The notes under the pieces are model-generated. The model was not told where the DNA came from. It saw nothing but the letters and a program-made list of their open reading frames with translations, and made no database searches. From contig NC_045143.1 in NCBI RefSeq assembly GCF_008831285.2, positions 7,449,503 to 7,513,502 of the forward strand: DNA of 64,000 bases. Direction: 5' to 3'. Of the stretch, positions 19,501 to 54,603 are shown piece after piece. The number at the start of each line of letters is the position of its first letter. Within the stretch, counting starts at the first letter, position 1. Made by a program: the position numbers and the translations under genes. This stretch comes from Nymphaea colorata (Eukaryota; Streptophyta; Magnoliopsida; Nymphaeales; Nymphaeaceae).

Positions 19501-21655
19501 CTAAGCATCATTTGCCCATGGCTTTGAAGACAAGGAGAGGGAAGTACTAAAGTACTCTGAACGAAGGCTCGCTATATGCTTCACATTGAACGGGTAGACA
19601 TCAGAGATGAGCTGAGAAGCGTAGGCCCTTTCACATATCTGTCTGTAGACCGTCTCCGTAGGGTGTGTAGCGTCGTAGTAAGCATAGCTTCTCCTGTCTG
19701 CGCATGGCTCAACTCCTTCCTCACATTTGGGGTTTCCTAACTGTTTCACCTTAACACAACATGACTCGTTGATGACCTTCAATCCTAGCAAATTCCAGAA
19801 AATGATTTAGACAGCATGCTACCACAAACTTAATAAACAGAGAACAGATCGCACGTAATTTATCAAAAATTCGCTACTGTTATCTAGAGACAACCAAATT
19901 TAAGTTTCTTTTCACTATTCTACTTGAACAGGCATGCTTTTGTACCCCATTGTTGTCAGTTGGACAAGCTCAAGTAAGATTTTTATACATTTGATGAGAA
20001 AAATTCGATCATAGAATATTTTTTTACATTTCATATGTTATCAAACATTGGTGTACATGTCAAAAATGGTCTGAACTCAGAGTGGAATTATAGGTTTCTA
20101 CTGTGAAGCTTAAATCCGTCGGACTGAAAAAAACTGAAAAAGGTGTAATTGAACAAGGATCCTCTTTGAACTCGTTGTGTATGGATGGTTCACATTTATT
20201 GGCACCTTGAAAAAGAGCCCAAAGTTAGTCGTGTGCATCTTTCATCATAAAGCAGAAGCAATGGAGATCAAGTCTCTTATGATGGGGCAAAAGAAGATGA
20301 TGTAAAGGGTTTAACATCAGGGAACATCTAGGGTGCATCAGACTTGGCAGTTAAGTCTCACAACACGTATATAAAAAAATTGTTACTTTTCTAAAGGAAA
20401 GACTTGAAGATGCACAGAGAAGGGTAAGTTTCTAACAACTTGCCGTAAGTTTTTTGGGTAAGTTTCCAATAACATACCGTAAGTTGCAGGATCATCGATC
20501 ATGCTACTGACAATTCCAAACATGTCAACGTAGGAAAACATAAAGCCCGGCACCTCTTCACTTAGTTCATCCAGAGCAACCCGCAGCACATTGTTGAACA
20601 CAATTGATGCATCATTGTAGGCCTTTACGCATGACCCATTGTTCAGCTGTCTAGCAGAAGGCCTACAACCGATTGGCTGGGTATTAAGCACCACAAATTT
20701 TCTTGCTCCAGATTCATAAAGCCTCTGAACATCATGCGCAACATTGTGTATAAACGATCGAGGTGAAATACCACGTGCATATCAGTCCAATGTGGTTGGA
20801 GATAGAGAGCATGCATCATATCCAAAGTTCAACAAAACCAAGGAGATATTCAAAATAGCAAGCACATGAGATATTCTGAAGAAAACTGGATACTATTTAC
20901 TGTCCTTGAGGGGCCCAAATAATTGCTATGGTCCTAGGTGGGAAAGTATCATGAACTAAGGAGTTAAGTGGAAAACAATTTTAACTTGATATAATTATTT
21001 TCATCTGCAGTTATTCTTTGCTGTAAACATTTACCAATATCTACAATTAACTTGCATCTAAACCAGTTCAAATCTCAAGTACAGTCAATTGCGATAAGAA
21101 TTTTAGTCAGATTCGAGTTTGTTTTGGATCTATAATCTTATTAAATGGAGAACTTGTGAACAGATTCATGTATACATTCATAACCAAATTTCATAATGGA
21201 CTAATATTTGTTCTGATATCCAACTTAATTGATATGGTCCTCATGAGATAAGCATTTCTTTCACAGGGGACCGTTTGACAGGAATGACTGATCATGGGGA
21301 TGTCAGATCAATTTTAGTCCTGCTGGAGATTTGGTTGATTAATAAAATATTAGTTCTCAAAAATTAAATGGTTTTACTCTTGCATATCAAGGAAGTTTTC
21401 CAAAGCAAAAGCTGCCGGAAGTTCAGGCGTGTCACACTATAGAAATAATTCTTTATACCAATGGGCCCATCTGCAAATCTAGATGAAGACTCGAAAGATG
21501 AGCAACGGGAAACATAGTATGTCAACCAACCTCAAATTTCAAAGACCATAGCATGGATTCACCATACTATCAGACATCCCAAGCTAGGGTTTGAACATAA
21601 TAAGCGTCCCACCCCCATGGATAATTAGGACTGACACTTTTCTCACACACACATA

Positions 21656-21686
<31 letters not shown>

Positions 21687-23173
21687 GGAGAGGGAGAGAG
21701 AGAGAGAGAGGGAGAGAGAACCTTGAGTTGTTCAGTGAAATTTCCTACTAGCAACTCTGTAAATTCCTCCAAATTACAGTTAATCTGGCCTGATTCAAAG
21801 CAGTCGGACAAGTAATCTACTGCTCCAGAGCTAACCAAAAATATGCTCTGCGACAAGTAGGAAGAGAGTTCAGAACTGCCGTTAAGCTGAGACCTCAAAT
21901 CCGACAGGGTTGCCTTCTGAAAGTTGGTGATTTGATGGCTCAAAGGTACGATATCTTCCTGCACATGACAAATTAATTTTCCAATGGTACATCAGTTGCT
22001 TTGAATTACAAGTGTGTATTAGTTTTAGGCAATATCAAGTTTAGTAAATGTGAGCAACAGAATTATGTAATCCTCCCGTTAGGATTCCAAACCAGTACTT
22101 CCTGACTCCCTACCTCTGATGTATTCATGGGGAGCTGCTTAGTTTTAGAAAAATTACAAATAATTGCTTGAATTTATAAAATAATTCACAACACCAAGAT
22201 ATTGAAAAACACAACTTTGCTGATCTTAACAATAAATTTATAATAGAGAGTTTTTTCTTCTAATCCACAATTTTCTTTTCTCATTTTCATTGGGGCTCGA
22301 CCTCGGTGTTATGGGGAAGACATGAAAGTACATCCTCTCCTATGAACACGCAATCCTTTCATAAACCTTGGAGTGCTGATACACACAAAACATAGGACAG
22401 AGGTAAAATCAGTTAAAGGAGCCCTTTCATTTTCAGGAATTACAATTATGTGGGTTTTATTTTAGTTTGTTTACCAAATTTCTTTTTGAGAAGAAATCCT
22501 TATATATACATATATTGAAAACAGCCGGCTACCTTTATGACCGTATAATTTTTTTTTTATTCTGTATCGTAAAAAACCGTTCAAAATGTGCATTCAATTG
22601 TTGAAAACTATGGCCAAGCAAATGTTGCAGCGAATGCATTTTTCTTAATGGTTTTTAGTAACACAAACTAGAAAAAAAGACCACTATATATATATAACCA
22701 CTTACAGCTATGGGGAAAAAGCTAAAACTAAAAGAGATAGCGCACTTTCCTCGAATTGCCTACAAAATCATTGAAGGATTCCGACTAGAAGGTTGCCTTA
22801 CATCTTGGTTGGTCGAATCAAGGACGCCGGAACCGACGGATGCGTAATTGACTCCAGCAAGAACTGAGCTCCCTTTAGTTAAAGGATCATAAAAAACCGG
22901 AAGGAATGGAGGTAAGCCCAACAGTTCCCCCAGTATGTCGGCCGGATTTCTTGCATTAGTGGCTCTCCCTGTTGGACCGAACGGAAAATCAATTCCATAC
23001 GGGTAGTATTTCATCTTGAGATTGGTATCCAGAAAGTCATTGTTGCCGGTGTCGACGATCGAGTCGCCGAAAATAAACATGGCCCTGACATCGCTTCCTG
23101 CAACAAGCATCGTCAAGTGTTCGGCGAAGAAAATGAAGATCAGAAAAAGAACGGAGAAAAATCTCAGCTGCAT
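19501..23173 (-). CDS. GDSL-3: GDSL-type esterase/lipase, intact frame, block III Asn replaced by Val, 379 aa
   Basis: The exons are 23173-22802 (124 codons), 21958-21722 (79), 20724-20478 (247 nt) and 19784-19501 (284 nt), all with GT..AG junctions. The protein has 379 residues. A signal peptide covers about residues 1-26, followed by AMFIFGDSIVDTGNND with Ser38. Block II is GVNYASVGSGVLD. Block III reads SSGAVDYL, with Val171 where the family has Asn. Exon 4 holds CEEGVEPC and YYDATHPTE (Asp323, His326). It is closest to GDSL-4 (shared DVRAMF.FGDS, DSTNQD, EEFTELLVGN). Because the oxyanion-hole Asn is missing while Ser, Asp and His remain, activity may be reduced or altered; this is inference. 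A good TATA box lies 73 bp upstream of the ATG. Confidence 0.92.
21648..21718. repeat. (CA)n-(GA)n compound microsatellite
   Basis: A run of CA repeats passes into GA repeats in intron 2 of GDSL-3, directly beside the exon 2 donor. On the coding strand this places a TC-rich then TG-rich tract just inside the intron. Confidence 0.9.
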
Positions 23174-23245
23174 CTTAAAGAAACTATAGGTATGTTATCA
23201 GATGTTTTCCACAATTAGGTGAAGGCGCGAGTCTCGTGGTAGCGT

Positions 23246-23255
23246 TATATTTATA
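23246..23255 (-). promoter_or_regulatory. TATA box of GDSL-3
   Basis: The minus strand reads TATAAATATA here, 73 bp upstream of the GDSL-3 ATG. That leaves room for a start site about 30 bp downstream and a 5' UTR of about 40 bases. Confidence 0.6.
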
Positions 23256-25435: not shown

Positions 25436-25485
25436 CGTAGTGTAACTGGTCGGACTAGTATTCGTAGTGTAACTGGTCGGACTAG
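25436..25485. repeat. Tandem duplication, unit ~25-27 bp, two copies
   Basis: The phrase TCGTAGTGTAACTGGTCGG occurs twice in immediate succession, each followed by ACTAGTA. The two copies appear identical. Confidence 0.85.
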
Positions 25486-25610
25486 TAGAGAATTGAAGGG
25501 TCAGATGGCAGTTTGATTCTCGTGGGTACTACTGCCTTGAACTGCACACGGCAAGTACGTTGTGCTTAGTTAATGACACTTAATTGATGAGTGTTTTTCT
25601 CCCCACTTAG

Positions 25611-25876: not shown

Positions 25877-26038
25877 TTCACACCTCAGCTTATAAAAAAG
25901 AAAACCTCCCTATACAGGGACAAAAGGTGGAAACTGGAAAAAATGGTACTCCCAAAATGTCCATTTTTTTTAAGATGTCTAAAATGCCGAGGAGTAATGT
26001 CCATGCACAGCCTTTTAGGGCATGCATTACACCCCTGG

Positions 26039-26550: not shown

Positions 26551-28517
26551 CTAAGCAACATCCCATGGCGCCCTTGAAGACAAGGACGGGGAAATACTGA
26601 TGTCCGATGAGAGGCTTGCTAGACGCTTCACATTGAATGGGTACACGTCCGTGGTGAGCTGAGAAGAATAAGCCCTTTCACAAATCTGCTTGTACGTCGT
26701 CTCTGTAGGGTGCATGGCATCGTAGTAAGCAAATCTACTCCTGTCTAAACATGGTTCAACTCCTTCCTCACAGGCAGCCGTTCCAATCAGCGTTGATATA
26801 GCACAACACGATTCGTTGATGATCTTCAGTCCTAGAAAATTCTCCAAAAACAAATTAGCTTGGAAACTTCTTTGCATGACCATTTGCTCTACAAGTTGGT
26901 AAACTTAAAAGAACAAATCCTTTAAATTTGCATGTAATTTAACAAAGGCTTTGTATTTTTTGGTGAGTGAGGGAGACCCACTATCTAGCAGAGAACCCAA
27001 GTTCCTACCTACTCTTTTATCCTTTCAGCGTAAAGGGCATGATTCGGTGCATCGAGGTGTTGTTCCTATTATGGTTTAACTTGCATCAGTAACACATCTT
27101 TCGCAGTACAGGAGGTTGATGCACTTACCACTAGAAATAAAAATTGGCCACCTACAAGACTCATCCCAAGCTGTTGTGCCAACCCCTCGGGCAGAAAGGG
27201 TCTGCATTTAATACGATACTTTAGGAAACAAAATTTGCAAGTTTCTTGTTAACATTCTGCTTGAATAAATTTGATTTTCATGCCCAGCTTTTCCAATCGA
27301 AAATAGGATATGAATTTGACGCATTAAAAAGTGAAATTCTCATTCATTGAATTTGTGATGGATGATGCTAATTATTGATCGCACCACTAGACTTCAAAGC
27401 TATTGGTGTGTATTTTGTTTGCGATAAGGACGTAGCAATTAGTGGAGACACTAGCTAAAAGCGGCCTTCAGTGCACTATAAAAAAGGTGCAATCTGGATG
27501 TGTAGTCAGCTTTGGCTTGCAATACCTAAAAAGGCCCGTCCAACCAAGACTACTACTGTTAGGACATCAAAGTTTGTTATGCTATCGACTAAGTCACATG
27601 GGTGCAAGTACAGGTTTGGGTAAGGATTAGGCGAAGTTGGTACAGATACAGTAGTTTTTTAATTTTGAAAAAATTAGATACGGAGGTATGACAGTGTATA
27701 TACATAAATATGTACATTAATAGTCCACAAGAATTCTCAAAATTAAAGAAAAATAAGAGGAAAATATAGAATCTTGGTGGAAGGATAAAGAAAAATTTGG
27801 TTTCACAACAAAAAATGCCGGAGACCAAAATAAGTGGTGGCATGCAGGGCACCGAAGTCATATATACTTACTTTCATTTTAGGGAACAGCTAGAATAAGT
27901 CATGTTACACATAACTTCCTAAAAGCACAGATAAAAGGATTATGCTAGAAATCAATGCTTGTATCTGGAGTGAGGATTAATTGGGCGGTTGCATGTTTCA
28001 TCTTATAACTTAAGTCATGATCCAACGAGCAAAGTTTCTACTCATTGTCAATGAACTCTGGTCAGTATATGTACCAGGCATGTGGTTCATGTTATTGGGC
28101 AACACAAATAGGTGATAATATGCATGTGATAATTAATTTAATTGAGATATGAGAAAGACATACCATAAGCTGCGGGATCATCGATCATGCTACTAATTAT
28201 TCCAAACATGTTGATGTAGGAAAATGTGAAGCCCGGCATCTCTTGGCTTAGTTCTTCCAGCGCAATCCGTAGCACGTTGTTGAACAAAATTGATGCGTCG
28301 TTATAGTCCTTTATGCATGACCCGTTGTTCAGCATTCTGGCAGAAGGCTGACAACCGCTTGGTTGGGTATTCAACACTGCAAATTTTCTTGCTCCAGATT
28401 CATACAGCCTCTACAAAAGCAACGTACGCATATTTACAAATATTGATGTAAGAATCTTTAGGGCTGGAATCGGAAACTTCGATCTGAATTTCCAACAAAG
28501 CGATGGCAGTCAATATT

Positions 28518-28574
<57 letters not shown>

Positions 28575-30917
28575 AAAACCAGACATTCTTTATATATGCC
28601 ATTTTGAAGGCACCAATATTTCAGTTAATGACCAATTATGATGATCTAAAAGAAAATATAATTTCAGCTATATATTTAATGAAACAGAAGGGACGTCTAA
28701 GTTCAGAGTATTTCTTTGTGCACAGTGATGTTTTCTGCTTTAAAAATCATCAATATTGAATCCCAATTTCTGCAAATTAATAAGAAAAGATAAAAATGAG
28801 TTCCAGTATGCATCAAACAATCAAATGCTATATCTACTCAGTACTGGTAGCTGTTAGATGGGCAATTGTGGATTGAACTGGACATCAATGGACAAGATCT
28901 TACAACCGATCCTCTCAAGCACCCAAGTTTGGTTTACTTTTGTAATTAAATCAATGAAAAGCTCCTAACTGTCCCCAAAGGGCATAGCTCAAAAGGTCGG
29001 GCTGGGGGCGTCATAGAGATCTCATCGCCTACCACTGACAGACCTCTGTACTCGGCAAGGGGAAGGGGAAGGAAGGGAGCTTGGGGCTCTTTCGCAGACA
29101 CTGGGATTAATCATCCTACTAACCCAAAAAGCTCCAGAGTTAAAGAGTCAAAATATGATGGGAAAGTATCTTACTCAAAGTTTATCCTTCAAGCAAAACA
29201 AGTGACCGGACCAAATGTTAGGAACAACACAATGTTTCTCACGCACTCTCAAGAGGGGGTTAAAAAGGAAGAAAACAAAAATTTACATAGTTCGGTACAA
29301 TAACCTCCTACGTCCACTGTCGCATAGATCTTTACTATTCACTCTCAGATGAACACAGATGCTCTCAGAGAGAAGATAGGAAAACTGCGGCCCTTCTCTC
29401 AACATAAGGATTAGGGCGAAACCCGCATTTGTACAAAATAACATAAATGCCCTTACATAAGAGTGCGTTGATCAAGTTCCATACACCAACACCAGACATT
29501 AGTATATATTAATTTTAAAAAACTAAATATAAAACAGATTGAAACATCAATAATGGTTCACCGTCTATTTGAATGACTTTTCAATTCCACTTGAAACTCA
29601 ATGCAGTATCGCATGCACGAACATCTGATTGGCAAGGATTCACCAAACGTTCAAACATACCCAAGTTAATTTTCAACTGCGAGTCCATGAGCAAAGAGTA
29701 CTAGAACCTTAGGTAGGCCGACTTTTGGGGGGGGGGGGGGGGGGAGAGAGTGAGTACCTTGAGTTCTTGACTGTAATTTCCTACTAGCAACTCCGTGAAT
29801 TCCTCCAACTGACATTCAATCCTACCCGACTGTAAGCAATTTGACAAGTAGTCGACGCCTCCAGAGCTAACCAAAAATATGCTTTGCGCTAAGTAGGCGG
29901 AGAGTTCCGAACTGCTGTTAAGTTGAGACTTCAGATCCGGTAAGGTTGCATTTTGAAAATTGGTGATTTGATGGCTTAAAGATACCACATTTGCCTGCAA
30001 AATAAATTCATTTTTCCCATGATATAGGGCTCCAAAATATATGTTGTAAGTAAACGTAAGAATTATAAGCAACAAAGCTAAATGGTTGATCTTCAACTTC
30101 ATCAGATGATGGGGAAGTAAAAAATCGCTAAGTTTGAGGATTCAATGAAAGAGAAATATGAGGAAAGAGTGTGACGGCTGTTGATTGTATTAAGATTATA
30201 CTCGTCAGGATGTAATATTTTTTTTTCTTTTTTGCTGTGGATAGTTACCTTTCATAAAAATCACTTATAGATTATTATAATAAAGACGTGTTCATGGGTT
30301 AAAAATATCTTAATTTCTTCTAACCAATTCTCTGGGGTAAGTCTCGAATGTTATTGCTGTCTTTTACTAGTTTGGGACGTGGGATCTATGCAAACAAATT
30401 TAAAAAAAAAAGGTGAATAATGTTAAATAATATAAGATCTCAACAGTTATTGCAACATGCAGACTAGTAGCAAGCCCTGGAATAATAAACAAAAATAATG
30501 GAAACGACGAACTAAGTTTAGCTACATGGATGTATTTCCACTTACATCTTGGTTAGTCGAATCAAGGATGCCGGAGCCGATCGATGCGTAATTGACTCCG
30601 GCGAGAATTGAGCTCCCTTTAGTTAGAGGATCATAAAAGACAGGAAGGAATGGTGGTAGCCCCAACAGTTGCCCCAGTATGTCTGCCGGATTTCTTGCAT
30701 TGCTGGTCCTCCCGGTAGGACCAACTGGGAAATCAATACCGTATGGAAAGTATTTAGCACTGAGGGTTGTATTCACAAAGTCATTGTTGCCGCTGTCCAG
30801 AATGGAGTCGCCGAAAACAAACATGGCCCTGACATCGCCCTCGCCCACGAGAAGTGTGAAGTGTTTGATGAAGAATATTAAGCAGGTCAGGGAAGCAATG
30901 GAAGCAGGTCTCAGCAT
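26551..30917 (-). CDS. GDSL-4: GDSL-type esterase/lipase, intact frame, block III Asn replaced by Val, 378 aa
   Basis: The exons are 30917-30546 (124 codons), 29994-29758 (79), 28410-28164 (247 nt) and 26831-26551 (281 nt), all with GT..AG splice sites. The protein has 378 residues. A signal peptide covers about residues 1-26, followed by AMFVFGDSILDSGNND with Ser38. Block II is GVNYASIGSGILD. Block III is SSGGVDYL with Val171 in place of Asn. Exon 4 holds CEEGVEPC and YYDAMHPTE (Asp323, His326). It pairs with GDSL-3 in exon lengths and motifs. Intron 2 carries a probable solo LTR and a TA microsatellite. I see no clear TATA box upstream of the ATG. The frame is open throughout, so it is probably expressed, but catalytic strength is uncertain. 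Confidence 0.92.
28521..28572. repeat. (TA)n microsatellite
   Basis: This is an uninterrupted TA run of about 26 units in intron 2 of GDSL-4. It is likely polymorphic and its length may be unreliable. Confidence 0.95.
29216..29491 (-). mobile_element. Probable solo LTR in intron 2 of GDSL-4
   Basis: Read on the minus strand, the segment begins TGTTGGTGTATGG and ends TTGTTCCTAACA. That gives TG..CA ends with a short TGTTRG/CTAACA inverted repeat, the form of a Copia-type LTR. Close to its end it contains a TTATTGTACCGAACTATGTA-like stretch often seen in plant Copia LTRs. The flanking 5 bases are CCAAA on the left and CCAGA on the right, a target-site duplication with one change. No internal retroelement sequence is present. 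The LTR is oriented as the gene is. Confidence 0.65.
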
Positions 30918-32973: not shown

Positions 32974-35148
32974 TTAAGCATCACTCCATGGTTGAACATT
33001 CGAAGAAGCCCCAACATCCAGAGTGAGGTTTGCTAGAACATTGACATTGAATGGGTAGACCTCAGTGTCGAGCTTAGAGAAGAAGGCCTTCGTCGACAAT
33101 TGCACGTAGACACTCTCAGTCTGGTGCACCGCGTCATAGAAGAGGTAAATGCTCCTATCCGAGCACGGTGCGACTCCTTCAGCACATGCCATATCGCCAC
33201 TACTAGCGGACAGGGTACAACAAGTTTCATTGGTTACCTTCAATCCTGGAAACCAACCAATCCAATGTATAGCTGTTTAGAACCAATATATTTTAGTAAA
33301 GCTAGGCGTGGACACAGTGTGCAATGACTTAAATACTTCTATTTAAAGTCAAAAAATAAAAAATAAAAGAGCAAAAAGATATTATGAGAAAGTTAAAATG
33401 TCTAAAATGAACACTTGTTTATAAAAAATTTCAAAAAAACTCTAACCCCCATTCTTTTTTTCTTTGGTGTACACTTATGCATGCACACCCTAATGCATGC
33501 AACTCGATATAATATGTGTGAAAAAAGAGGGCTACTCAAGTTGCTTACCGTAAGCAGTTGGGTCGTCGAGCATGCTCATAACCATGTGGAAGATATTGAC
33601 GTAGACGAAGCTGAAGCCAGGCTTGTCTCGGCTCATACCATCCAGAGCATACTTCAGCTGGTGATTTAGATACGAGTCTGCCTCGTTCAGAAAGTCCTCG
33701 TCGGAACCATTATTTTTGGTTCTAGAAAAGATGTTGGACCCAGCTGGCATGAGATTAAACACCACGAACTTCCGTTCCCCAAAATTATATAACCTCTAAC
33801 GCAGGTAAAAGAGGGAAAAAAAACATAAAAGACGTGTAAGAAATGAAAATATAATGATTTGCCATGTCACCCATAAATTAATTTTCCAATTTGATAGAAT
33901 GTCATAACTTCACCTAAGTCACATTGATTATGCATCCAGACTTGTTTTTCTTCTTTTGGGTTTAATATGGACTTAGGAGAAACCGCCTTCCATATAAAAC
34001 CCAATGTCATACTGATCTTACACTTCCAACTTCCAAGATTATGGCTTGCTTTGGAGTCTAATTAAACCTCCAGTACATTCTTTATCTCGAATGTTTTGTA
34101 CTATTATGGAGGACAAACTCTCTAGTGAGTATCAAAACTTAACATTTTGTTCTTCATGGTAAGCAACAACTTATATTTAAAGGGGTATAGATTTCATAAG
34201 AAAGAAACTATGCATGTTCTTGCAACAACAGCTTAAGAACACAAAGTTCTTATTCTAAAAACTATATATAACAACATTATATCTACTACCTTTTAATTGT
34301 TAAATCTAGAAACAGCATCCCAAATCATACTATGTTACATGTTAATAGTAAAATTTTGTACAAGGTGTCGTTTTGTTCACCACTTTGTGGAAAATTGTTA
34401 GCTTGAAAATGTCAGATACATGTAACTGGATGGGTTGATGAAATAGTATCCATCTTTTAAAAAAAAAGAACATGTTTATTTTACAAATATATATTATGTT
34501 GCCAATGAACGAGATATGGAGGAATCATCCACATGTAAGGAGGCATCATCGTAATATCATAATTAGCATTATGGGTCTTTTCTGCTTGAAAAGAGAATCT
34601 TTTGTTAAAATAGACGTAGAAGTGATGTGGATTATTCAAGAATCATGTATTTGAAAGGGACACATGGCCGGTCTCTTGTAAAGCTTCAGAGTTAGTGAAG
34701 ACAAGGAGCAGATGGAAATCTGCAAAGGGCCTAAACAAGAGAGAGAGAGAGAGAGATGGAAATATGCAAAGTAGGAATAGTCTTTGGCTTACTGTTTGGC
34801 TAGTGGAAACGAGTATGCCCGAACCACCTGTGGCGTAACTGACTCCGGAAAGAATGGCACTTCCCTTGGTTTGAGGATCATAGAAGACCGGAAGGATGTG
34901 GGGGAGACCCAGCAGCTGCGCCAGTATGTCCGCCGGGTTTCTTCCGTTAGTGAACCTGCCAGTGGCACCCCCTGGAAAATCCACTCCGTAAGGATAAAAG
35001 TTGGCCTTGGAAGTCGTGTCCAAGAAATCATTGTTCCCACTGTCGACGATCGAATCCGGAAGACGAACATGGCTTTGGCGTTGCTCTCTGCCACTGCTAC
35101 TAAGAAGTGGGAGAAATGAACGAAAAGCAGGAAGACAAGGAGCAGCAT
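32974..35148 (-). pseudogene. GDSL-5: GDSL esterase/lipase lacking exon 2, frameshift at the GDS motif
   Basis: Exon 1 (35148-34793), exon 3 (33795-33549) and exon 4 (33245-32974) are recognisable. Exon 1 starts MLLLVFLLFVHFSHFLVAVAES and is 356 nt, one less than the 357 of GDSL-7. The lost base falls in the catalytic block, so the expected [10 protein letters not shown] is read as MFVFRIRSST. Exon 2 is absent. Sequence matching the GDSL-7 intron 2 at about 48770-48800 joins near 34690 directly to sequence matching the end of GDSL-7 intron 1 at about 50740, so one deletion removed exon 2 and most of intron 1. Exons 3 and 4 are open and close to those of GDSL-7 (YDAVHQTESV). A TATA-like GATATATATG remains at about 35188-35200. 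It cannot make a normal lipase. Confidence 0.9.
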
Positions 35149-36783
35149 GTTGGGTGGAAGGAACTAACAAAGTTGCCGAGCTTTGTTAATCATATATATC
35201 ATATGTGTTAGGTGCAATAGTCATAGTGGCACGAATTGCTACTCATATAATTAAAGAACGGCATGGATTGTCGGTCGGTTAGTACTCAATTTTTTTGTTT
35301 TTTATATTGGAGGACAAGACATCTCCTGCTACTTTCCATGTTTGTCGTTAACATGAAACATGTTCTCACCTTTAACCACAGGGGGGCTTTTTTTTCATAC
35401 TTTTATAAGGCAAATTTTTTTTAAGCTTCAGTTTTACCTTTACAAGTGAAGAGTCATATATTTAATGAACATAAACATTTTGGTTATTGTAAATTCATGA
35501 CACTTTAAAAGTTTAGTTTTATATTGAAAATTGGGCCGTGGGATTAGCCTTCTGCTCACCCAAAAAGCTAGTTGTAACTGGCTCTTTGAACCTATCTGGC
35601 TGGATTGGTCTGAAATCTCTAACTTGAATTCAAAATCCTATGTTAAAGCAAGCATTTAATCATTGGCATCAGTAAATTTGATTTAAATTGGATATCAAAG
35701 TGAACTGCTTGAAAAAAATTGGATACAGAAAAAAAAATTAACATCTGATTAAAAAAAAATATGAATCAGATTAGGATCTGATAAATGACAGTTGTTCTGG
35801 TTCGGATTTAATGAAAATGCAATCGGATTGGTTTCTTAGTTTTAACTAAATATCCTATATCTGATACCATATAATTTCAAAGACAGGTTCTTAAATCTTA
35901 ATGTATCGCAATGTGAACTGCATTTAGTTTAAAAGTTTGATACATATTCAGTTGTGAATTTGAAAATCAGATTTGGATACAATTTGAATTACGAATTTAT
36001 ATTTAGATTTGGCTATAGTATAAATTTCTTCATTTGTATTTGGATTATCCAAATTTGAATACAAGTATACGAACATCCAATGAAGCAGATATGGCAGTAT
36101 ATTCATGCTGAACCAAGGACATAAAAGATGTGCATCGACAGGGGCAGGGGCAGGGGGGGTTGGCAGGGCTATGGCCCCTCTCATATTTTTAAATATGCAA
36201 ATGTTTACTATAAATTTTACAAATTTTAGTTTAACCCATATAAAAATTTTAAAAAAATATGTTTTGGGTCCCTATCAGCCTGATGTCAGAAACCCGAGCC
36301 CGACCATAAAAATAACTACATAAAATGATAGAAACAATGTCTTAGTAGTGATAGAAATGAATCATTTAACTTGAGCTTTAAACTGTAAAGTTTAAATAAT
36401 GCAAAACAGTGAAAAAAAACGCAAAAATTTTGTTGAGTTTTTTTCAAAGAAACGCTAAAAATGCATTTTTCATGGTTTTTAATTGTGTAAAAATAAAAAA
36501 ACTAATAGAATAATTGGCAGTAGAGTACTCCACGTGACCTCAGGCCACTTACCGGTGGTGGGTACCAATGGCTACCTACCACCGCCACCACTTTGCCAGG
36601 GGCAGAGCCAGGACTTTTTTTAGGAGTGAACTAAACAGTCTGACAAACTTATTCGGTAGAGCTAAACTAAACTCGAATATAAAAAATATATCAAGTAACT
36701 AATTATACATGTATACAGGCTAACCATATCAATACATTCTCTCAAGAGCCATGATATATTTACTTCATTCAACGATATACAGA
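35149..36783. other. 5' flank of GDSL-5, duplicated with the GDSL-7 flank
   Basis: The part 35200-36300 is collinear with 51230-52290 upstream of GDSL-7. It contains an AT-rich element (about 35655-36110) related to the insertion in GDSL-9, and a GC-rich GGCAGGGCTATGGCCCC patch (about 36130-36280) related to the hAT-like MITEs. The part 36310-36590 matches 57315-57580 upstream of GDSL-8. A fragment starting CAGGGGCAGAGCCAGGA at about 36597 is another MITE end. No gene is seen. Confidence 0.6.
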
Positions 36784-39236
36784 TCAAGCATCACTCCATG
36801 GTTGAACATTCGAAGAAGCCCCAACATCCAGGGTGAGGTTTGCTAGAACATTGACATTGAACGGGTAGAATTCAGTGTCGAGCTTAGAGAAGAAGGCCTT
36901 CGTTGACAATTGCACGTAGACACTCTCAGTCGGGTGCACCGCATCATAGAAGAGGTAAATGCTCCGATCCGAGCACGGTGCGACTCCTTCAGCACATGCC
37001 ATATCGCCACTACTAGCGGACAGGGTACAACAAATTTCATTGGTTACCTTCAATCCTGGAAACCAACCAATCCAATGAATAGCTGCTTAGAAACCGGTTA
37101 TGTACACAACCTTGTGCAGGAAAAATTGTGAACACAAGTGTGCAATGACTAAACTACTTCTCTTTAAAGTTTTAAAAAAATTTAAAACAACAAAAAGGAT
37201 GTCATGAGAAAGTTAAAAAGTCTAAAATGAACACTATAAAAAAATTGTGCACACAAGTATGCACACTCCTATGCATGCAACTCGATATAAGTGTGAAAAA
37301 AAGAGGGCTACTCAAGTTGCTTACCGTGAGCAGTTGGGTCATCGACCATGCTCATAACCATGTGGAAGATATTGACGTAGACGAAGCTGAGGCCAGGCTT
37401 GTCTCGGCTCATACCATCCAGAGCATATTTCAGCAGGCGGTTTAGATACGAGTCTGCCTCGTTCAGAATGTCCTCTTCTGAACCATTATTTTTGGTTCTA
37501 CAGTAGATGGCGGACCCAGCAGGCATGAGATCAAACACCACGAACTTCCATGCCCCAAAATACTATAACCTCTAAAACAGGTAAAAAGGAAAAAAAAAAA
37601 AGCTTAAAAGACGTGTAAGAAATGAAAATAAAATGATTTTCCATGTCACCTATAAATTAATTTTCCAATTTGATAGAATGACATAACTTCATCCAACTCA
37701 CATTAGGAGAAACCGCCTTCTGTATAAAACCCAAGGTCATACTGATCTTACACATCCAACTTCCAAGGTTATGACTTGCTTTTGAGTCTGGATAAACCTC
37801 CAATACACTCTTTAACTCGAATGTTTTGTACTATTAGGGAGGACGTACTCTCTAGTGAGTATCAATACTTAAAATTTTGTTCTTCATGGTAAGCAACAGC
37901 TTATATTTAAAGGGGTATAGATTTCATAAGAAAGAAACTGTGCATGTTGTTGCAAAAATAGCTTAAGAACACAAAGTTCTTATTCTAATAACTATATATA
38001 ACATCATTATATCTACCCTTTAATTGTTAAATCTAGAAACAGCATCCCTAATCAAAAAATGTTACATGTTTGAAAGACGAAACTGGTGATTTTAGACAAT
38101 GTGTTTTAGGAACATGTGTTTTCTTTTTTTAGAAGCAACTATGCTGGGAGTGGGCTCCTTTTATTTTGTTGAGAACACTAACAAATCCAGTTCCAACAGC
38201 TCTAGTCGCGGGTTATGCACCATTAATGTACTAACAAACATGACGATCATTCTTGGAGTGCAGAGACAGATCCCTTCCCTGGCTGGCTCCATGTATCTTC
38301 ATGAAAAATTTAGTGGAAGGAGTGTTCTAGTAAAATTTTGTACAAGTTGTAGCTTTTGTCACCACTTTGTGGAAAATTGTTAGCTTGAATATGTCAGATA
38401 CATGTAACTGGATGGGTTGATGAAATAGTATCCATATTTAAAAAAAGGAACGTGTTTCTTTTACAAATATATATTATGTTGCGGATGGAATCATCCACAT
38501 GTAACGAGGCATCATTCACTTGTAAGGAGAATCTTTTGTTGAAATAGGGGTAGAAGTGATGTGGATTATTGAAGAATCATGTATTTATGGCCGGTCTCTT
38601 GTAAAGCTTCAGAGTTACTGAAAAAAGCTCCGGTGCAGCTGTAAGTGGCTCTAAGCCTCCCTTTCTTATCTGGCTCTCATTTTTTTTCCATTACAAGAAG
38701 TTTCAATTGATCAAGGCAGAACAACTAACAAGTTGTGAGAGAAGAGACTACTAGTTCTGTGCACTTTAAAAGAAAAATGTCCTAAGACTCTCTTTGCCAA
38801 CTCTTAGATTTTCTGGCACCGGCCTTACACTCCAAATCCTTCAACTCAAAATGATCGATTTTCAGTAAGGTTGGGGACAACCCTCGCCGGAGTTTTCCAG
38901 AAATCCTTCAGCTCAAAATGCCCACTTAAATTCTTAACGGGGTTGATGGATTGGTAGCGAGTTTTTAATACACAATTTGAGAAAATGAAGTTGGAAAGTT
39001 TGCACCTCAAGCTGTTGGGTGAAATTTCCTTGCAATGTATCTGCCAGGCTGACGCATTCGGCAAAGGTAGAAACCGAGCAGTCTTGAGAGATATCGTCTC
39101 CACCGGAGTTGATAAGAAATATGCTCTGTGATAGATAGGATGCGAGCTCGCCACTCCCGTTGAGTTGAGACGCCAATTCCTGTAGCGTATAACTAATGAA
39201 GTTGGTCACTTGCTCCCCCAATGATGTGACGTTTGT
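36784..39236 (-). pseudogene. GDSL-6: GDSL esterase/lipase, exon 1 missing and stop in exon 3
   Basis: Exon 2 (39236-39006, 77 codons), exon 3 (37571-37325) and exon 4 (37055-36784) align with GDSL-7 and keep their splice sites. Block III reads INSGGDDIS, with Asp in place of Asn. Exon 4 holds YDAVHPTESV and ends NVQPWSDA. The third codon of exon 3 is TAG where GDSL-7 has TAC (RLY). No exon 1 is found. Homology to GDSL-7 intron 1 runs up to 40100, where retroelement sequence begins, and the sequence beyond the retroelement (from 44347) matches DNA that lies upstream of GDSL-8. The promoter and exon 1 are therefore gone, and the gene is dead. Confidence 0.9.
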
Positions 39237-46574: not shown

Positions 46575-49500
46575 TTAAGCATCACTCCATGGTTGAACAT
46601 TCGAAGAAGCCCCAACATCCAGGGTGAGGTTTGCTAGAACATTGACATTGAACGGGTAGACCTCAGTGTCGAGCTTAGAGAAGAAGGCCTTCGTTGACAA
46701 TTGCACGTAGACACTCTCAGTCGGGTGCACCGCATCATAGAAGAGGTAAGTGCTCCTATCCGAGCACGGTGCGACTCCTTCAGCACATTCCATATCGCCA
46801 CTACTAGCGGACACGGTACAACAAGTTTCATTGGTTACCTTCAATCCTGGAAACCAACCAATCCAATGTATAGCTGTTTAGAATCAATATATTTTAGTAA
46901 AGCTAGGCGTGGACACAGTGTGCAATGACTAAAATACTTCTATTTAAAGTCAAAAAATAAAAAATAAAAGAGCAAAAAGATATTATGAGAAAGTTAAAAA
47001 GTCTAAAATGAACACTTGTTTATAAAAAATTTCAAAAAAACTCTAACCTCCATTCTTTTTTTCTTTGGTGTACACTTATGCATGCACACCCTAATGCATG
47101 CAACTCGATATAACATGTGTGAGAAAAGAGGGCTACTCAAGTTGCTTACCGTAAGCAGTTGGGTCGTCGAGCATGCTCATAACCATGTGGAAGATATTGA
47201 CGTAGACGAAGCAGAAGCCAGGCTTGTCTCGGCTCATACCATCCAGAGCATACTTCAGCTGGTGATTTAGATACGAGTCTGCCTCGTTCAGAAAATCCTC
47301 GTCAGAACCATTATTTTTGGTTCTACAGAAGATGTTGGACCCGGCAGGCATGAGATTAAACACCACGAACTTCCGTGCCCCAAGATTGTATAACCTCTAA
47401 AGCGGGTAAAAGGGGGAAAAAACATAAAAGACGTGTAAGAAATGAAAATATAATGATTTGCCATGTCACCCATAAATTAATTTTCCAATTTGATAGAATG
47501 TCATAACTTCACCTAAGTCACATTGATTATGCATCCAGACTTGTTTTTCTTCTTTTGGGTTTAATATGGACTTAAGGAGAAACCGCCTTCCATATAAAAC
47601 GCAAGGTCATACTGATCTTACACTTCCCACTTTCAAGGTTCTGACTTGCTTGAGTGTGGATGGACCTCCAGTACAATCTTTAACTAGGATATTTTATACT
47701 ATTGTGGAGGACGTACACTCTAGTGAGTATCAAAACTTAAATTGTTTTTCCTTTTGGTAAGCAACAGCTTATATTTAAAGGGGTATAGATTTCATAAGAA
47801 AGAAACTGTGCATGTTCTTGCAAAAACAGCTTAAGAACACAAAGTTCTTATTCTAATAGCTATATATAGCATCATTGTATCTACCTTTTTATTGTTAAAT
47901 CTAGAAACAGCATCCCTAATCATACTATGTGACATGTTTGGAAGATGAAACTGGTGATTTTAGACAATGTGTTTCAGGAACATGTGTTGTCTTTTTCTTT
48001 TTTTTTTTCTTTTTTTTTGTGAAGAAACTCTGCTGGGAGGGGGCTCCTTTTTTGTTGAGATTTAGCAAACAAGTACAAATCCAGTTCAACAAAAAAACAA
48101 ACAGCTCTAGGAGACTGGGAGCATGTGTTCTAAATACAAAATATCCTTCCCAACGAACATCCTCAACAAGTCACGGGATATGAATCATTAATGTACTAAC
48201 AAACATGACAAGCATTGTTGGAGGAGTGTAGAGAGATCCCTTCCCTGGCTGGCCCCGGGTATCTTCATGAAAAAATTAAAGGAAGGATGCTTTAGTAAAA
48301 TTTTGTACAAGTTGTAGGTTTTGTCGCCACTTTGTGGAGCATTGTTAGCATGAATTTGTAGATACATGTAACTGGATGGGTATCCATCCTTGAAAAAAAA
48401 ACATGTTTCTTTTACAAATATATGTTACCTTGCGGATGAACGAGATATTGAGGAATCATCCACATGTAAGGAGGCATCATCCACTTGTAATATTACCACG
48501 TGCCTTTTTCTATAAAGACCCAACCCACTTTTGCGATTGAACCCTTTGTTTGGCGGATCTTAACCTCCTGTCCTCTAACAATTTCGGTTTCAACTTCAAA
48601 AAAGACTAGAAACCAGAACAACTATCTAGTCAATAATCTCATGTATAAGCCCTTAAAAGATTCTTCACAATTTTCAATACATGATTAAATTTCTGTGGTG
48701 TTACAACAATCTATTGTTAAAAATAGAAGTGATGTGGATTATTCAAGAATCATGTATTTGAAAGGGACAGAGCCCGGTCTCTTGTCAATCTTCAGAGTTA
48801 GTGAAAAAAGACTACAGTGCAGCTGTAAGTGTAGCTCTAAATCACGGAAGTACGTGTTCTTTGAACGTATATCTTTAGAAGATTGTTGGATTGCCTCTTG
48901 TCTTCGCATGGATCATTAGGAAAAAGTTATTATTGTATGTTGTGATTTGTTTGCCTTAAACTCTGGTGAACCGAATGTTAGAAGACCTTTTGTCTTTCGA
49001 GCCACATAAATCTTCGTATGATTATGCCGTTATTTCTTTGTCTTTCTATTTTCTTTGACATCTAAAGCACCACAGCCTCTCCTTTTTCTTATCTGGCTCT
49101 CATTTTTTTTTTCCCATTAGAAGAAGTTTCAATTGATCAAGGCTGGACGTCTAACAAGTGTGAGAGAAGAGAATACCAGTTCTTCTGAAAAAAATTGTCC
49201 TAAAACTCTCTTTGGCACCTCTTAGATTTTCTGGCTCAGGCCTTACACTCCCAATCCTTCAACTCAACGTGATCCATTTTTAATAAGGTTGGGGAGAACC
49301 CCTCGCCGGAGTTTTCCTGAAATCCTTCAGCTCAAAATTCCCACTTAAGTTCTTAACTGGGTTGATGGATTGGTACTCGTGGTAGCCAGTTTTTAGTACA
49401 CAATTTGAGAAAATGAAGTTGGAAAGTTTGTACCTCAAGCTGTTGGGTGAAATTTCCTTGCAATGTATCTGCTACGCTGATGCATTCGGCAAAGCTAGAA

Positions 49501-50630
49501 TCCAGGCAGTAGTCGAAGAGATCGACTCCACCAGAGTTGATAAGAAATATGCTCTGTGATAGATACGATGCGAGCTCACCACTCCCGTTGAGTTGAGAGG
49601 CCAATTCCGGTAGCGTATAATGAATGAAGTTGCTCACTTGCTCCCCCAATGATGTGACGTTGTTCTGCAAAAAATTAATAAAATGCATATTTTTTACTCA
49701 ATCAGGCTGTAAAAGTGGGATTAGGATTGAATCTACAATTGTGGAATCAAATTTCAGATCTGAATTAGAGTATGACTTTTTTAGTTCTCATTTGAATCTG
49801 ACTATGTGAATATGCAATAAAACAAAATATAATTAACAATATATCCAATCCAATTCAAATCTGATATGTTAGGAGACCCCATAGCCCTGCAGAATCGTAC
49901 AACGAAAAATTTAATTATAATAAAGAGAGCTCATATTTTTTCAACGCGTATATAAGAGATGACGTGAAGCTTAAAATTAATAGCCTACAACTTTTACCAC
50001 ATAAAAACGATTCTTTTATATCATTAGCCTACATCTTTTAGCACAGAGAAAAAAAAATCTTTTATATCGTTTTCTAAGTTTCTGGGTATGAAGATCATAT
50101 TTAATTATTACATCATTTTCTTTCGAAATTGCTTGCAAATCTGGAAAAAAAATATTGTCTATGTATTACAAAATTAGAATAGTATACTTTAAAAGTAAAG
50201 AAGCCCATTTCCGCTCACTAACTGCGAGCTCAAACTTTAGGTTCCAAAAGCGAATAGATTCAAGGTATAACATGAGTATCTATAACTATATTTCAAAAAA
50301 AAAAGAAATTGAAATTAGAAAGCTCAAAACGATTATGAGGTCTTCAGAAAATAGCTAATAAGATGAGCATTTTTATGAAAAAACTTTTCAAAAAACTTTG
50401 GGTGAGCATTAAACTCACAACCCAAAAAGAAAAAACTCTAAAAGCTCGTTTCATTTCTCCTGCTTTTTTGTGTTTTTGGGCTCTTTTAAGGACATGAATA
50501 AGGTATGGTACACCTTTTAAAGAGTATTGAGATCCCACCATTTGTACTACAAGTGAGTAGCACTTATGGGAATGGAAGCCACTATGCACTACACTGTCTA
50601 CGTTGCTTGTTTATCTCTTGGAACAAAAAG

Positions 50631-50665
<35 letters not shown>

Positions 50666-51167
50666 AATCATGTTTGATGTGCTTAAACCAGAGTGGAGAT
50701 TGAGGCTAAAAAATTTTCCAAAACTAAATCATGTACAGAGGGCCTAAACCAGGGAGAGGGAGAGAGAGAGAGAGAGAAATATGCAAAGCAGGAATAGTCT
50801 TTGGCTTTACTCTTTCGCTAGTGGAAACGAGTATGCCGGAACCAGCTGTGGCGTAATTGATTCCAGAAAGAATGGCGTTTCCCTTGGTCCGAGGATCATA
50901 GAAGACAGGAAGGAAGTGGGGGAGACCCAGCAGTTGCGCCAGTATGTCCGCCGGGTTTCTTCCATTAGTGAACCTGCCTGTGGCACCCCCCGGAAAATCC
51001 ACTCCGTAAGGATAAAAGTTGGCCTTGGAAGTCGTGTCCAAGAAATCATTGTTCCCGCTGTCGACGATCGAATCGCCGAAGACGAACATGGCTTTGGCGT
51101 TGCCCTCCGCCATTGCTACTGACAAGTGGGAGAAAGGAATGAACAGCAAGAAGAGAAGGTGCAGCAT
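46575..51167 (-). CDS. GDSL-7: GDSL-type esterase/lipase, intact frame, block III Asn replaced by Val, 368 aa
   Basis: The exons are 51167-50811 (119 codons), 49664-49434 (77), 47396-47150 (247 nt) and 46846-46575 (272 nt), with GT..AG junctions. The protein has 368 residues. The signal peptide is MLHLLFLLFIPFSHLSVAMA, followed by [16 protein letters not shown] with Ser33. Block II is GINYATAGSGILV. Block III is INSGGVDLF with Val166 in place of Asn. Exon 4 holds CAEGVAPC and YDAVHPTESV (Asp316, His319). A TATA-like GATATAAGA sits about 46 bp upstream of the ATG. Exons 3-4 and their flanks are nearly identical to GDSL-5, so the two units split recently or have exchanged sequence. Intron 2 is long (about 2 kb) and contains a copy of the ~200-bp dispersed repeat found in its relatives only in the adjacent intron 3. 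Confidence 0.92.
50629..50661. repeat. Poly-A tract
   Basis: This is a run of about 30 A residues in intron 1 of GDSL-7, just inside the intron from exon 1. It could be the tail of a degraded retroposon, but no body is recognised. Confidence 0.85.
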
Positions 51168-52787
51168 GTTGGGTGGAAGGAACTACCAAAGTTGCCGAGG
51201 AGCTTTTGTTAATCTTATATCATATGGTTAGGTGTGCTTGTCATAGTGGCACGAGATTGCTACTCATCTAACTGAAGAGCACAATGGATTGTCGGTTAGG
51301 TGTACATGTGGAGTGGCGCGAGATTGCTACTCATATGATTGAAGAAACGTAATGGATTGTCGGTATTGGATATGCCATTCTTTGACATGTTTGTCGTTAA
51401 CATGAAGGAACATGTTCTCACCTTTAACCACAGGCGGCCTTTTCAAACATTCATAAGGCAAAATTTTTTTAAGCTTCAGTTTTACCCTTATAAGGGAAGA
51501 GTCTTATATTTAATGAACATGAACATTTTGGTTATTATAAACTCATGACACTTCAAAAGTTTAGAGTAGCCTTAAAACCTAGTTGTAAGCGGCAATTCAA
51601 CTTATGTGGCTGGATTGGTCTGAAATCTCCAACTTGAATTCAAAATCCCATGTCCAAGCAAGCCATTAACCATTGGCATGTCAGTAAATCTGATTCAAAT
51701 TGGATATCGAAGTGAACTGCCTGAAAAAAGTTGGATAAAAAATTACATCTGATTAAAAAAATGAATCAGATTGGGATCTAAGAAATGACATCTGTTCTGG
51801 TTTGTATTTTATGAAAAATGCAATCGGATTGGTTTCTGATTGTTCGGTTTAACTAAATATCCTATATCTGATATCCATATATACTTTCAAAGACGGTTCT
51901 TAAATCTTAATGTATCGTAATGTGATTTGCATTTAGTTTAAAAGTTTGATACATGTTCGGTTGTGAATTTGAAAATCAGATTTGGATACAATTTGAATTG
52001 TGAATTTATATTTAGATTTGGATATAGTATAGATTTTTCTTCATTTGTATTTGAATGATCCAAATTTGATTACAGGTACATGAACATCTAACAAAGCAGA
52101 CATGGCCTTGAAAATTCAAGCCACTGGACCAAAAACATAAATGATGAGCCTCGACAGGGGGGGGGTTGGCAGGGCCATGGCCCTTCTCATATTTTTAGAT
52201 ATGCAAATTTTTACTATAAATTTTACAAATTTTAGTTTAACCCATGTAAAAATATAAAAAAAATATGTTTCAAACTATAGTTTGGTCCCTGTGACAAAAA
52301 AAATTTCTAACTCCACGCCGTGGAATCGTGCTATGATCAGAAGCAGAAAAAAGGAAGAGTGTTTTCTTGTCATCACAAGGTGAAAAGGTAAAAAGAAAGC
52401 ATAAATTTAGGGTGCAATCAATCATTAGAAGCGATCTATTTTAACTGACAGGGTGCTGAATGATTCAAGAACAGAGAAAGTTAGCTGGGTGTGGGCAGCC
52501 TTATGTTCCTAAGCAATGAAGAATACAAATACGAGAATCGTTGTAGTTGTAGGTAGGGGTGAAAGGCCAAGAAGATCATACATGGCTGATTCCCGAAAAC
52601 CAATTTCAGCTAATTTAGCATCAAGGCAGGTAATTGCTCACATATATAAAAAGATGTAAACACAATCTTTTTCATTTAAAGATCTCATACGGTAAGAAGC
52701 AAAGACAGTCTTTTCCACTTAAAATCTCATCCGGATATATTCTCAACCAGTAATGTTATCCTAAATAACTGCATGACTCTACTGCAA
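51168..52787. other. 5' flank of GDSL-7 and 3' flank of GDSL-8
   Basis: The part 51230-52290 is collinear with the GDSL-5 upstream flank (35200-36300). It includes an AT-rich element at about 51668-52110 and a GC-rich MITE-like patch at about 52150-52290. The part 52320-52787 is unassigned and should contain the 3' UTR of GDSL-8. No gene is seen. Confidence 0.55.
51213..51221 (-). promoter_or_regulatory. TATA-like box of GDSL-7
   Basis: The minus strand reads GATATAAGA, 46-54 bp upstream of the GDSL-7 ATG. A closely related AT-rich element is kept upstream of GDSL-5. Confidence 0.45.
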
Positions 52788-54603
52788 CTAAGCGTCACCC
52801 CATGGTTGAGCCAGCGAAGAAGTTACAGCAAGGCCTGCTAGGACTTTAACATTGAAGGGGTAGACCTCCGTGTCAAGCTCGGAGGAGTAGGCCTTCGTCG
52901 ACAGCTGCACGTACACATGCTCCGTTGGATGCACAGTGTCGAAGTAGAGGTAGCTGCTCCGATCTGAGCAGGGCGCAACTCCTTCCGAACAGAGAAACCC
53001 GGCACCGTCGCTGGGCACCGTGCAACATGATTCATTGGTTACTGCTACCCCTGATAAGATGAAGCCAATGAAATAAACTCTGATATTAGTTAAATTGTTT
53101 AGGAACATACTTCGTCCACTAGTTTGGTTACTCTATCATGTCTTCTTCGAAATCGAGTTGCGTGCAGAGGTAACAGATATATACTCATCAACAAGAAAGA
53201 ATGGGGTTGGAGTATTTTATGAATTTTTTTATAAAAAATATACATCTTAAAGTGTTAAAATTTTCATAATCTCATTCATTTTAAAGGGTTCATGATCTGA
53301 TTACTAACATTTGAATGGATGAGATTTCATACCGTATGCTGCTGGGTCGTCGAAAATGGCATTAACCATGTGGGTGATGTTGACATAGACGAAGGCCATC
53401 CCCACCTTCTCTTTGCTCACACCATCCAAAGCAGCCTTCAGCTTGTGGTTGAAATACAAGTCAGCCTCGTTCAAGTACTCCGCGCAAGTCCCGTTGTTTA
53501 TGCTTTTAGCGTAGACGTCGCAACCGCTCGGCATGAGATTGAACACCACAAATTTCCGCGCCCCATAATCATACAACCTCTGTCGTTCAAAAGCGAGAAA
53601 AGTATGAACTATGAATTTATATTTCGTGATTAATTTCACCGCCCCACGAACAAGGAGCAATTTCATGTAATTTTGCAATACAATCCAGACCCAGCAAGAG
53701 CATAAAAAGATTACGTGTGATAAACATATGAATTCCAATTGAATCTTGGATTGAAATTCAGATTCAATCATTTGAAGATTTAGTAACCTAAATCATAAAG
53801 TAAAATAAGGAGATTTTTAATTTAAAAATTTTAAAAAAATGTTAAAAATCTAAAATATGCATGCTTCTATACAAAATTTTTAAGTAAAAAACGATGTGTA
53901 GTACCTCGAGCTGCTGGGTGAAATTCCCCACCAGCTCCTCTGCAAGGGTGAAGCACTCCGCCAGGGCGGACGCCGAGCACTGCACCGAGAGGTCGTCTCC
54001 GCCGGAGTTGAAAAGGAAGATGCTTTGTGATAGGTAGGATGAGAGCCCCGCGCTCCCCTTCAGTTGAGACTCCAAATCCGGCAGCGTCGAATTGATGAAG
54101 TTGGTAACCTGCTGCCCCAGTGACGTGACGTTCGCCTGTGTGCAGAAAAATTTAGCGTCGACCTATCAGACAAAGGGAAAGTCGGAAAATTTCGACGGAA
54201 GGGTTTCGCTTACAGTTACGCTAGTGGAAACGAGTATGCCCGAACCGCCAGTTGCGTAATTGACGCCGGAAAGAATGGCGCTCCCCTTGGTCAGAGGATC
54301 GTTGAAGACGGGAAGCAAGCGGGGGAGGCCCAGCAACTGTGCCAGTATGTCCGCGGGGTTCCTTCCGTTTGTGAACCTGCCGGTGGCACCCGCCGGGAAA
54401 TCTACTCCGTATGGATAGTAGTTGCCCTTGGAAGTGGTGTCCAAGAAGTCATTGTTCCCGCTGTCGACGATCGAATCGCCAAAGACGAACATAGCTGTGA
54501 CGTTGCTCTCCGCCATTGCTACTAACAAGTGGGAGAAAGGAAAGAAGACCAGGAATAGAATGTGCAGCATGTTCGCTGGAAGTGGTTGGCCTGGCCGCTG
54601 CAT
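52788..54603 (-). CDS. GDSL-8: GDSL-type esterase/lipase, intact frame, block III Asn replaced by Asp, 365 or 376 aa
   Basis: This is the most compact copy, with short introns. The exons are 54603-54214, 54135-53905 (77 codons), 53579-53333 (247 nt) and 53050-52788 (263 nt). Two in-frame ATGs are possible. The one at 54570 aligns with the start of GDSL-7 and gives 365 residues with signal peptide MLHILFLVFFPFSHLLVAMA; the one at 54603 adds 11 residues. Counting from 54570: block I is [15 protein letters not shown] with Ser33, block II GVNYATGGSGILV, block III FNSGGDDLS with Asp166 in place of Asn, and block V YFDTVHPTE with Asp316 and His319. A TATA-like TATTTAAG lies 58 bp upstream of the first ATG. 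The exons are GC-richer than those of the neighbours. It is likely a working gene, though block III is non-canonical. Confidence 0.93.

Follow-up and report, generated by a model that had tools for sequence, protein, structure and literature searches.

Replacement of the block III Asn in a selected clade of tandem GDSL lipase-like genes of Nymphaea colorata

What does a hydrolase family retain when one of its catalytic residues is replaced in genes that stay open? This question is raised by a tandem array of GDSL lipase-like genes in Nymphaea colorata, part of which lies in the window that we analyzed (the whole stretch of 64,000 nucleotides, C6:7449503-7513502). The name of the SGNH hydrolases refers to four residues, among them the block III Asn, whose side chain donates a hydrogen bond to the oxyanion hole. 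The genes GDSL-1 and GDSL-2 present the block III motif GGND, whereas the motif reads GAVD in GDSL-3, GGVD in GDSL-4 and GDSL-7, and GGDD in GDSL-6 and GDSL-8. These motifs had been reported by a first-pass annotation of the array, and we recovered all of them codon by codon on the minus strand. Our results, which are based on comparisons within one 407.8 Mb genome, indicate that the altered copies belong to a clade under purifying selection. Its members may serve a function different from the usual cleavage of esters, because the catalytic Asn has been lost and yet the genes are intact and under selection.

Complete genes of the array have four exons, with blocks I and II in exon 1, block III in exon 2 and block V in exon 4. 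Gene models with four exons, GT/AG splice sites and no stop codon inside the frame were obtained for GDSL-2, GDSL-3, GDSL-4, GDSL-7 and GDSL-8. The claim that three frames with Val and one with Asp remain open is thus borne out by complete models for GDSL-3, GDSL-4 and GDSL-7 (Val) and for GDSL-8 (Asp). The region treated in the first-pass annotation is delimited by two of these genes, from the end of the GDSL-3 stop codon (19501) to the beginning of the GDSL-8 start codon (54603). The spliced product of GDSL-4, the only spliced protein that was scanned, scored 92 bits with the Pfam domain Lipase_GDSL (PF00657), whose curated cut-off is 23.6. Proteins of the clade present a hydrophobic N-terminus, which suggests that they are secreted. 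The annotation had also described the block III codons as the series AAC, GAC and GTC; this applies to GDSL-1, -2, -4, -6, -7 and -8, but GDSL-3 uses GTA.

The alignment of exon 2 is gap-free through the block III motif, and a profile alignment places Gly-Gly-Val-Asp over Gly-Ala-Asn-Asn of lysophospholipase A (8a24). Together, these alignments rule out that a shifted or neighboring Asn has taken over the block III role, a possibility that had been named as fatal to the original observation. A weaker single-sequence phmmer alignment to 9l34 introduces a one-residue gap at the motif and puts the Asn of 9l34 over the Asp of the clade; we take this gap to be an alignment error because the G-x-x-D spacing is identical in both proteins. 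An Asn does occur three residues upstream of the site in GDSL-6, GDSL-7 and GDSL-8, but the GGND copies have the same Asn. Beyond that residue, the exon 2 alignment revealed no other Asn adjoining the block III position in the altered copies.

We then extended the analysis to the whole genome. GDSL lipase-like genes form a large array on C6 (~7.06-7.53 Mb), and another group of them lies on C1 near 28.03-28.13 Mb. A search with the GDSL-4 exon, in which only the best candidates are scored, returned 39 places, such that the resulting counts are lower bounds; our own scan of the fetched loci yielded 40 rows, including a single fragment that does not reach block III. Among at least 39 readable exons, block III carries Asn in 25 and another residue in 14. 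Twelve of these 14 copies (six Gly, four Val and two Asp) belong to one clade on C6, which also contains a member with Asn at position 7521730 (C6_7522). Of the remaining two, one is an exon on C4 with an internal deletion (GTVD) and the other is a C1 copy with a stop codon (GGDD). The C4 exon is an exon 2 located on another large contig (C4:7385533-7385700), and its codon at the site, GTA, is that of GDSL-3. One further copy on C1, C1_2514, presents the motif GSND. Beyond the window, the clade comprises four distinct GGGD copies, one GGVD copy and one GGND copy. The altered subclade described in the first-pass annotation therefore stands, but its scope (Asp or Val, within the array) was too narrow, since the pattern also includes a Gly state and an Asn-bearing member outside the window. 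Three of the Gly copies (C6:7158253, 7166448 and 7196279) are identical in exons 1, 2 and 4 and present at most two differences in exon 3; over 990 coding bases, C6_7158 and C6_7167 differ from C6_7197 by 2 and 0 bases, respectively. This trio represents either a recent duplication or an assembly duplication.

The altered copies and C6_7522 form a single clade in a protein tree of 30 taxa, with a support of 97.4 by approximate likelihood-ratio test (aLRT) and a bootstrap of 97, in agreement with the earlier proposal of a subclade. In the same tree, this clade groups with C1_28099, C1_28112 and C1_28126 against all other copies (92.6 and 82). The tree was built from 30 of the 35 aligned copies, after dropping C6_7457, C6_7390, C6_7345, C1_28067 and C1_28076; C6_7158, C6_7167 and short fragments were left out of the alignment, and the C4 exon and the two near-identical Gly copies are outside the tree. 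Exons 1 to 4 each recover the clade on their own (86, 50, 98 and 51), with weak support for exons 2 and 4. Complete models are available for 10 distinct members, nine of which are without the block III Asn. The Val-bearing C6_7515 and the Asn-bearing C6_7522 constitute a close pair, with 63 differences over 987 aligned bases.

How unusual is variation at this position? The comparison covered 314 columns, and in 50 of them the residue is the same in all 16 Asn-type copies used (16 of the 22 rows outside the clade, those omitted being partial or broken). In the 10 complete and distinct members of the clade, 41 of these 50 columns are unchanged and seven vary, each in one or two members. The column of the block III Asn, in contrast, presents four Val, four Gly, one Asp and one Asn (C6_7522), while the Asp that follows it is unchanged in all 10. 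The block III pattern is not due to chance, because 41 of the 50 invariant columns are unchanged while this one holds four residues. Four residues at one site are not unusual in themselves: starting from Asp and using the average substitution ratio of the clade, this outcome was obtained in 0.325 of 3,000 simulations. What is unusual is that the site varies where it is otherwise invariant.

Other conserved positions present more limited changes. Eight Cys are common to the clade and the Asn-type copies, six of which are found in 10/10 members and two in 9/10. Both Cys at core positions 193 and 205, which are invariant in Asn-type copies, are lost in exon 3 of GDSL-7 (47396..47150), GDSL-5 and GDSL-6, as if one disulfide had been dropped in a subgroup. 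The block II Gly is conserved in 8 of 10 members and is Ala in C6_7223 and C6_7066; a backbone amide is present either way. The residue preceding it varies strongly among clade members (G, V, A, I or D), with a best site ratio of ~2 among the values tried. Outside the clade, one Asn-type copy whose exon 1 lies at C6:7269554 on the plus strand has FGSS in block I instead of FGDS.

We used a purpose-written script to estimate the ratio of nonsynonymous to synonymous substitution rates (omega). The script yielded an omega of 0.300 for the clade, compared to 0.279 with the MG+F3X4 model of IQ-TREE. Branch tests included the 10 clade members and 10 Asn-type copies added for comparison. A three-ratio model, in which omega was 0.306 for Asn-type branches, 0.293 within the clade and 0.166 for the stem of the clade, was no better than a single ratio (p = 0.54). 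Relaxed selection on the whole clade is thereby ruled out, since its omega is no different from that of Asn-type branches. Individual branches are below one for GDSL-3 (omega 0.31, p = 0.004), GDSL-4 (0.16, p = 4e-8), GDSL-7 (0.29, p = 5e-5), GDSL-8 (0.21, p = 7e-7) and C6_7515 (0.38), with p values ranging from 4e-8 to 0.024 that are uncorrected over 14 tests. The suggestion that the altered copies are kept under selection is supported by these values, and neutral evolution, which would have undermined it, is rejected for GDSL-3, -4, -7 and -8. At the block III site itself, the likelihood within the clade peaks near an omega of 1.

The order of the changes was then reconstructed. Under an average codon model, the ancestor of the clade carried Asp with a posterior of 0.90, a value that drops to 0.48 if the site is neutral; Val is reconstructed in the ancestor of GDSL-3 and GDSL-4 (0.98) and Gly in that of the Gly group (1.00). 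An Asp ancestor is therefore probable, and the order Asn to Asp to Val that had been proposed from the codons is the better reconstruction. Asp at the root implies that Val arose three times and that the Asn of C6_7522 is a return. Gene conversion was considered as a source of this Asn and rejected, as the donor tract would be shorter than 40 bases: over exon 2 alignment positions 116-154, C6_7522 differs from C6_7515 at the block III codon only, and with exon 2 alone the two copies still group together (95). Very short conversion tracts may nevertheless lie behind it.

Taken together, these results may be best explained if the clade encodes secreted and folded GDSL proteins selected for a role that can be filled without efficient ester hydrolysis, a reading to which we assign a probability of roughly 0.48. 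Under this reading, Asn would have changed to Asp before the radiation of the clade, followed by separate moves to Val, to Gly and perhaps back to Asn. Replacing Asn with Ala abolishes hydrolysis in a lipase of Streptomyces rimosus (PMC10779480) and abolishes the activity of SaOatA (PMC9487903). An Asp at block III should be worse for the oxyanion than Ala, through repulsion unless it is protonated. Efficient hydrolysis would thus already have been badly impaired in the Asp-bearing ancestor, and selection since then would have kept a job without rapid turnover. Candidate jobs include use of the former active site to bind an ester or acyl ligand, retention of such a ligand as a slow acyl-enzyme, or a partnership with another protein; in that case, the triad would be there to position the ligand or to be acylated very slowly, and not to complete the catalytic cycle. 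A plant precedent for a GDSL protein that can act without catalysis is ERMO3/MVP1/GOLD36 (PMC3498303, PMC4757993). Also in favor of such a role, Tyr242 (core numbering, exon 3), a second column that is invariant in the 16 Asn-type copies, is replaced by Ser, Thr or Phe in all 10 members. Several observations weigh against it. The block I Ser and the Asp and His of block V (Asp-x-x-His) are unchanged in 10/10 complete members, as the first-pass annotation had noted for the open copies, and all three sites fit best at the lowest omega tried. In 20,000 simulations at an omega of 1, Ser, Asp and His were unchanged in all ten tips at frequencies of only 0.0024, 0.0000 and 0.0003. The Asp root loses much of its support when the site is treated as neutral. 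Finally, the PSA_Lip-like GDS(L) hydrolases of Basidiomycota are reported to carry mostly Gly at the position of the block III Asn, and PSA_Lip is reported to be active (PMC11372007).

The same observations feed the main rival explanation, namely that the clade is catalytically active and that its oxyanion hole is made of the backbone amides of Ser and of the block II residue, perhaps with water in the space of the Asn, such that a slower or different reaction (e.g., acyl transfer) is selected. In its favor is the triad, unchanged in 10/10 members and under purifying selection at each of its sites. A retained triad fits an active enzyme, but it says little for or against activity, as most conserved columns (41 of 50) are unchanged too. 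Active precedents exist, since SGNH families without the Asn use Gln (SASA) or Arg (PatB1) (PMC9487903) and the active fungal PSA_Lip was modelled with Gly at this position (PMC11372007). However, we found no Gln of the SASA/CE6 type beside the catalytic Ser in the 12 clade rows with exon 1, which have Ile, Leu or Val there, and no Arg of the PatB1 type at the block II Gly, which is Gly or Ala in 10/10 members. The idea that another residue fills the oxyanion hole thus gains no support at the positions that known alternatives use. The presence of Ala at block II in 2/10 members also counts against this rival, although this change is a cheap one in the S. rimosus lipase (PMC10779480). The loss of activity in both Asn-to-Ala enzymes and the likely repulsion by an ancestral Asp count further against activity, and overall we regard an active clade as a serious contender that is rather doubtful. 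It is unlikely that the clade unites a working Ser-His-Asp triad, an oxyanion hole that no longer relies on the side chain of the block III Asn, and repeated uptake of Val.

Another candidate donor was Asn187 (core numbering), which is fixed in 10/10 clade members and which we take to lie at the end of strand 4 of the fold. It is not supported as a compensating residue: two of the Asn-type copies that are grouped with the clade, C1_28112 and C1_28126, have it alongside the normal Asn, as do the aligned 8a24 and 9l34.

Alternatively, the copies might be on their way to becoming pseudogenes, the block III change being a product of drift. Broken copies are indeed common in the clade and the array (GDSL-5, GDSL-6, GDSL-9 and C6_7531, the latter without an exon 2 match), and the omega of about 1 at the Asn site is what drift would produce. 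In the Gly group, omega reaches 0.53; this lies below 1 (p = 1e-4) but exceeds that of the rest (p = 1e-4), and in tests of its four tips one by one, an omega of 1 is not rejected for three. The omega of the Asn-bearing C6_7522 is 0.80 and not different from 1, and C6_7515 has a weak-looking third donor site (GTTCGC). Against this, neutrality is rejected separately on the GDSL-3, -4, -7 and -8 branches, constraint is as strong in the clade as in the Asn-type copies and intact models are found in ten distinct members, which makes general decay improbable.

The simulations hint that Val is preferred at the site, although it is a post hoc signal that hinges on the reconstructed root. From a GAC root, Val appeared in all three lineages with frequencies of 0.0003 (omega of 1) and 0.0002 (omega of 0.3), and any one new residue was shared by the three lineages at 0.0016 and 0.0019, respectively, and, with an Asp root in general, at 0.0012 to 0.0019. 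All ten tips remained within Asn, Asp, Val and Gly at 0.012-0.013 for an omega of 1. It is nonetheless very improbable that the site, instead of being free, was under active selection for Val with repeated origins of the change, as the argument concerns one site, a Val root needs fewer origins, ten tips within these four residues are not unusual at an omega of 0.3 (about 0.23), the site omega is about 1 and not above it, and short conversion tracts are possible.

The coordinates of the genes and of the other altered copies are listed in Table 1. A stretch of reverse transcriptase (RVT_2) was found on the plus strand at 5225-5986, within intron 1 of GDSL-1 and antisense to this gene. Pieces of a Copia-like retroelement occupy 41359-43473 on the plus strand, upstream of exon 2 of GDSL-6, where the missing exon 1 would be expected; they include gag (below its cut-off), Pol_BBD, GAG-pre-integrase and SH3-like domains. 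This insertion may be the reason for the loss of exon 1 in GDSL-6.

Table 1. GDSL lipase-like genes of the window (window positions) and altered copies of the C6 clade (contig positions).
Feature	Position	Strand	Structure	Motifs
GDSL-1 (homologous core)	2961..7527	-	Asn-type comparison copy; frame change in exon 1	GGND, AAC at 4292..4290
GDSL-2	13017..15856	-	Complete Asn-type comparison copy	GGND, AAC at 14600..14598
GDSL-3	19501..23173	-	Complete; exons 23173..22802, 21958..21722, 20724..20478, 19784..19501	GAVD, GTA at 21820..21818; FGDS and DATH retained
GDSL-4	26551..30917	-	Complete; exons 30917..30546, 29994..29758, 28410..28164, 26831..26551	GGVD, GTC at 29856..29854; FGDS and DAMH retained
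GDSL-5	33025..35170	-	Broken; exon 1 (garbled start), exons 3 and 4; exon 2 not detected	LPDS (exon 1)
GDSL-6	36835..39236	-	Pseudogene; exon 2, exon 3 with TAG, exon 4; exon 1 not detected	GGDD, GAC at 39098..39096
GDSL-7	46575..51167	-	Complete; exons 51167..50811, 49664..49434, 47396..47150, 46846..46575	GGVD, GTC at 49526..49524; FGDS and DAVH retained
GDSL-8	52788..54603	-	Complete; exons 54603..54220, 54135..53905, 53579..53333, 53050..52788	GGDD, GAC at 53997..53995; FGDS and DTVH retained
GDSL-9	59680..61706	-	Fragment; 45-residue exon 1 piece and 22-residue exon 2 piece	Block III not found
Val copies, C6 clade	C6:7471224, 7479260, 7498936, 7514640
Asp copies, C6 clade	C6:7488508, 7503407

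A single tandem array thus offers natural Asn, Asp, Val and Gly versions of related proteins under selection, together with a reconstructed Asp ancestor. This series is useful for asking what the Asn does, whether a triad functions without it and whether non-hydrolytic members are hidden among plant GDSL proteins. If the clade is active without the Asn, nature would have supplied, in a plant, a set of otherwise similar proteins in which a single catalytic position is variously Asn, Asp, Val or Gly. Annotation of plant GDSL proteins (GELP family) based on motifs, in which the residue check described in the cited part of PMC4757993 is limited to Ser and His in addition to the presence of the blocks, could count such a clade as ordinary enzymes. 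Among the matches listed by our literature search, no paper joined GDSL with GGVD, GGDD, GAVD or GGGD, and none of those listed by broader searches dealt with this clade; both statements apply to the print covered by these searches.

Compared to known systems, the clade shares the domain (PF00657), the eight Cys and the hydrophobic N-terminus of the plant GELP family but differs from it in that nine of its 10 distinct complete members lack the block III Asn. An oxyanion hole without the side chain of this Asn is also described for SASA/CE6 and PatB1, which rely on a Gln next to Ser or on a block II Arg where the plant clade has neither (PMC9487903). The PSA_Lip-like hydrolases mostly present Gly at the block III Asn, as do four distinct members of the clade; according to the cited part of PMC11372007, they are missing the block V Asp and His, which are both kept in the plant clade. 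Finally, ERMO3/MVP1/GOLD36 (At1g54030) is a plant GDSL pseudoenzyme that is short of one residue of the catalytic set and was retained with a function: its catalytic Ser is Gly and, as far as the cited parts of the two reports go, it can work without catalysis (PMC3498303, PMC4757993). There it is the Ser that is lost, whereas the N. colorata clade keeps its Ser in 10/10 members and loses the Asn, and does so in a tandem clade.

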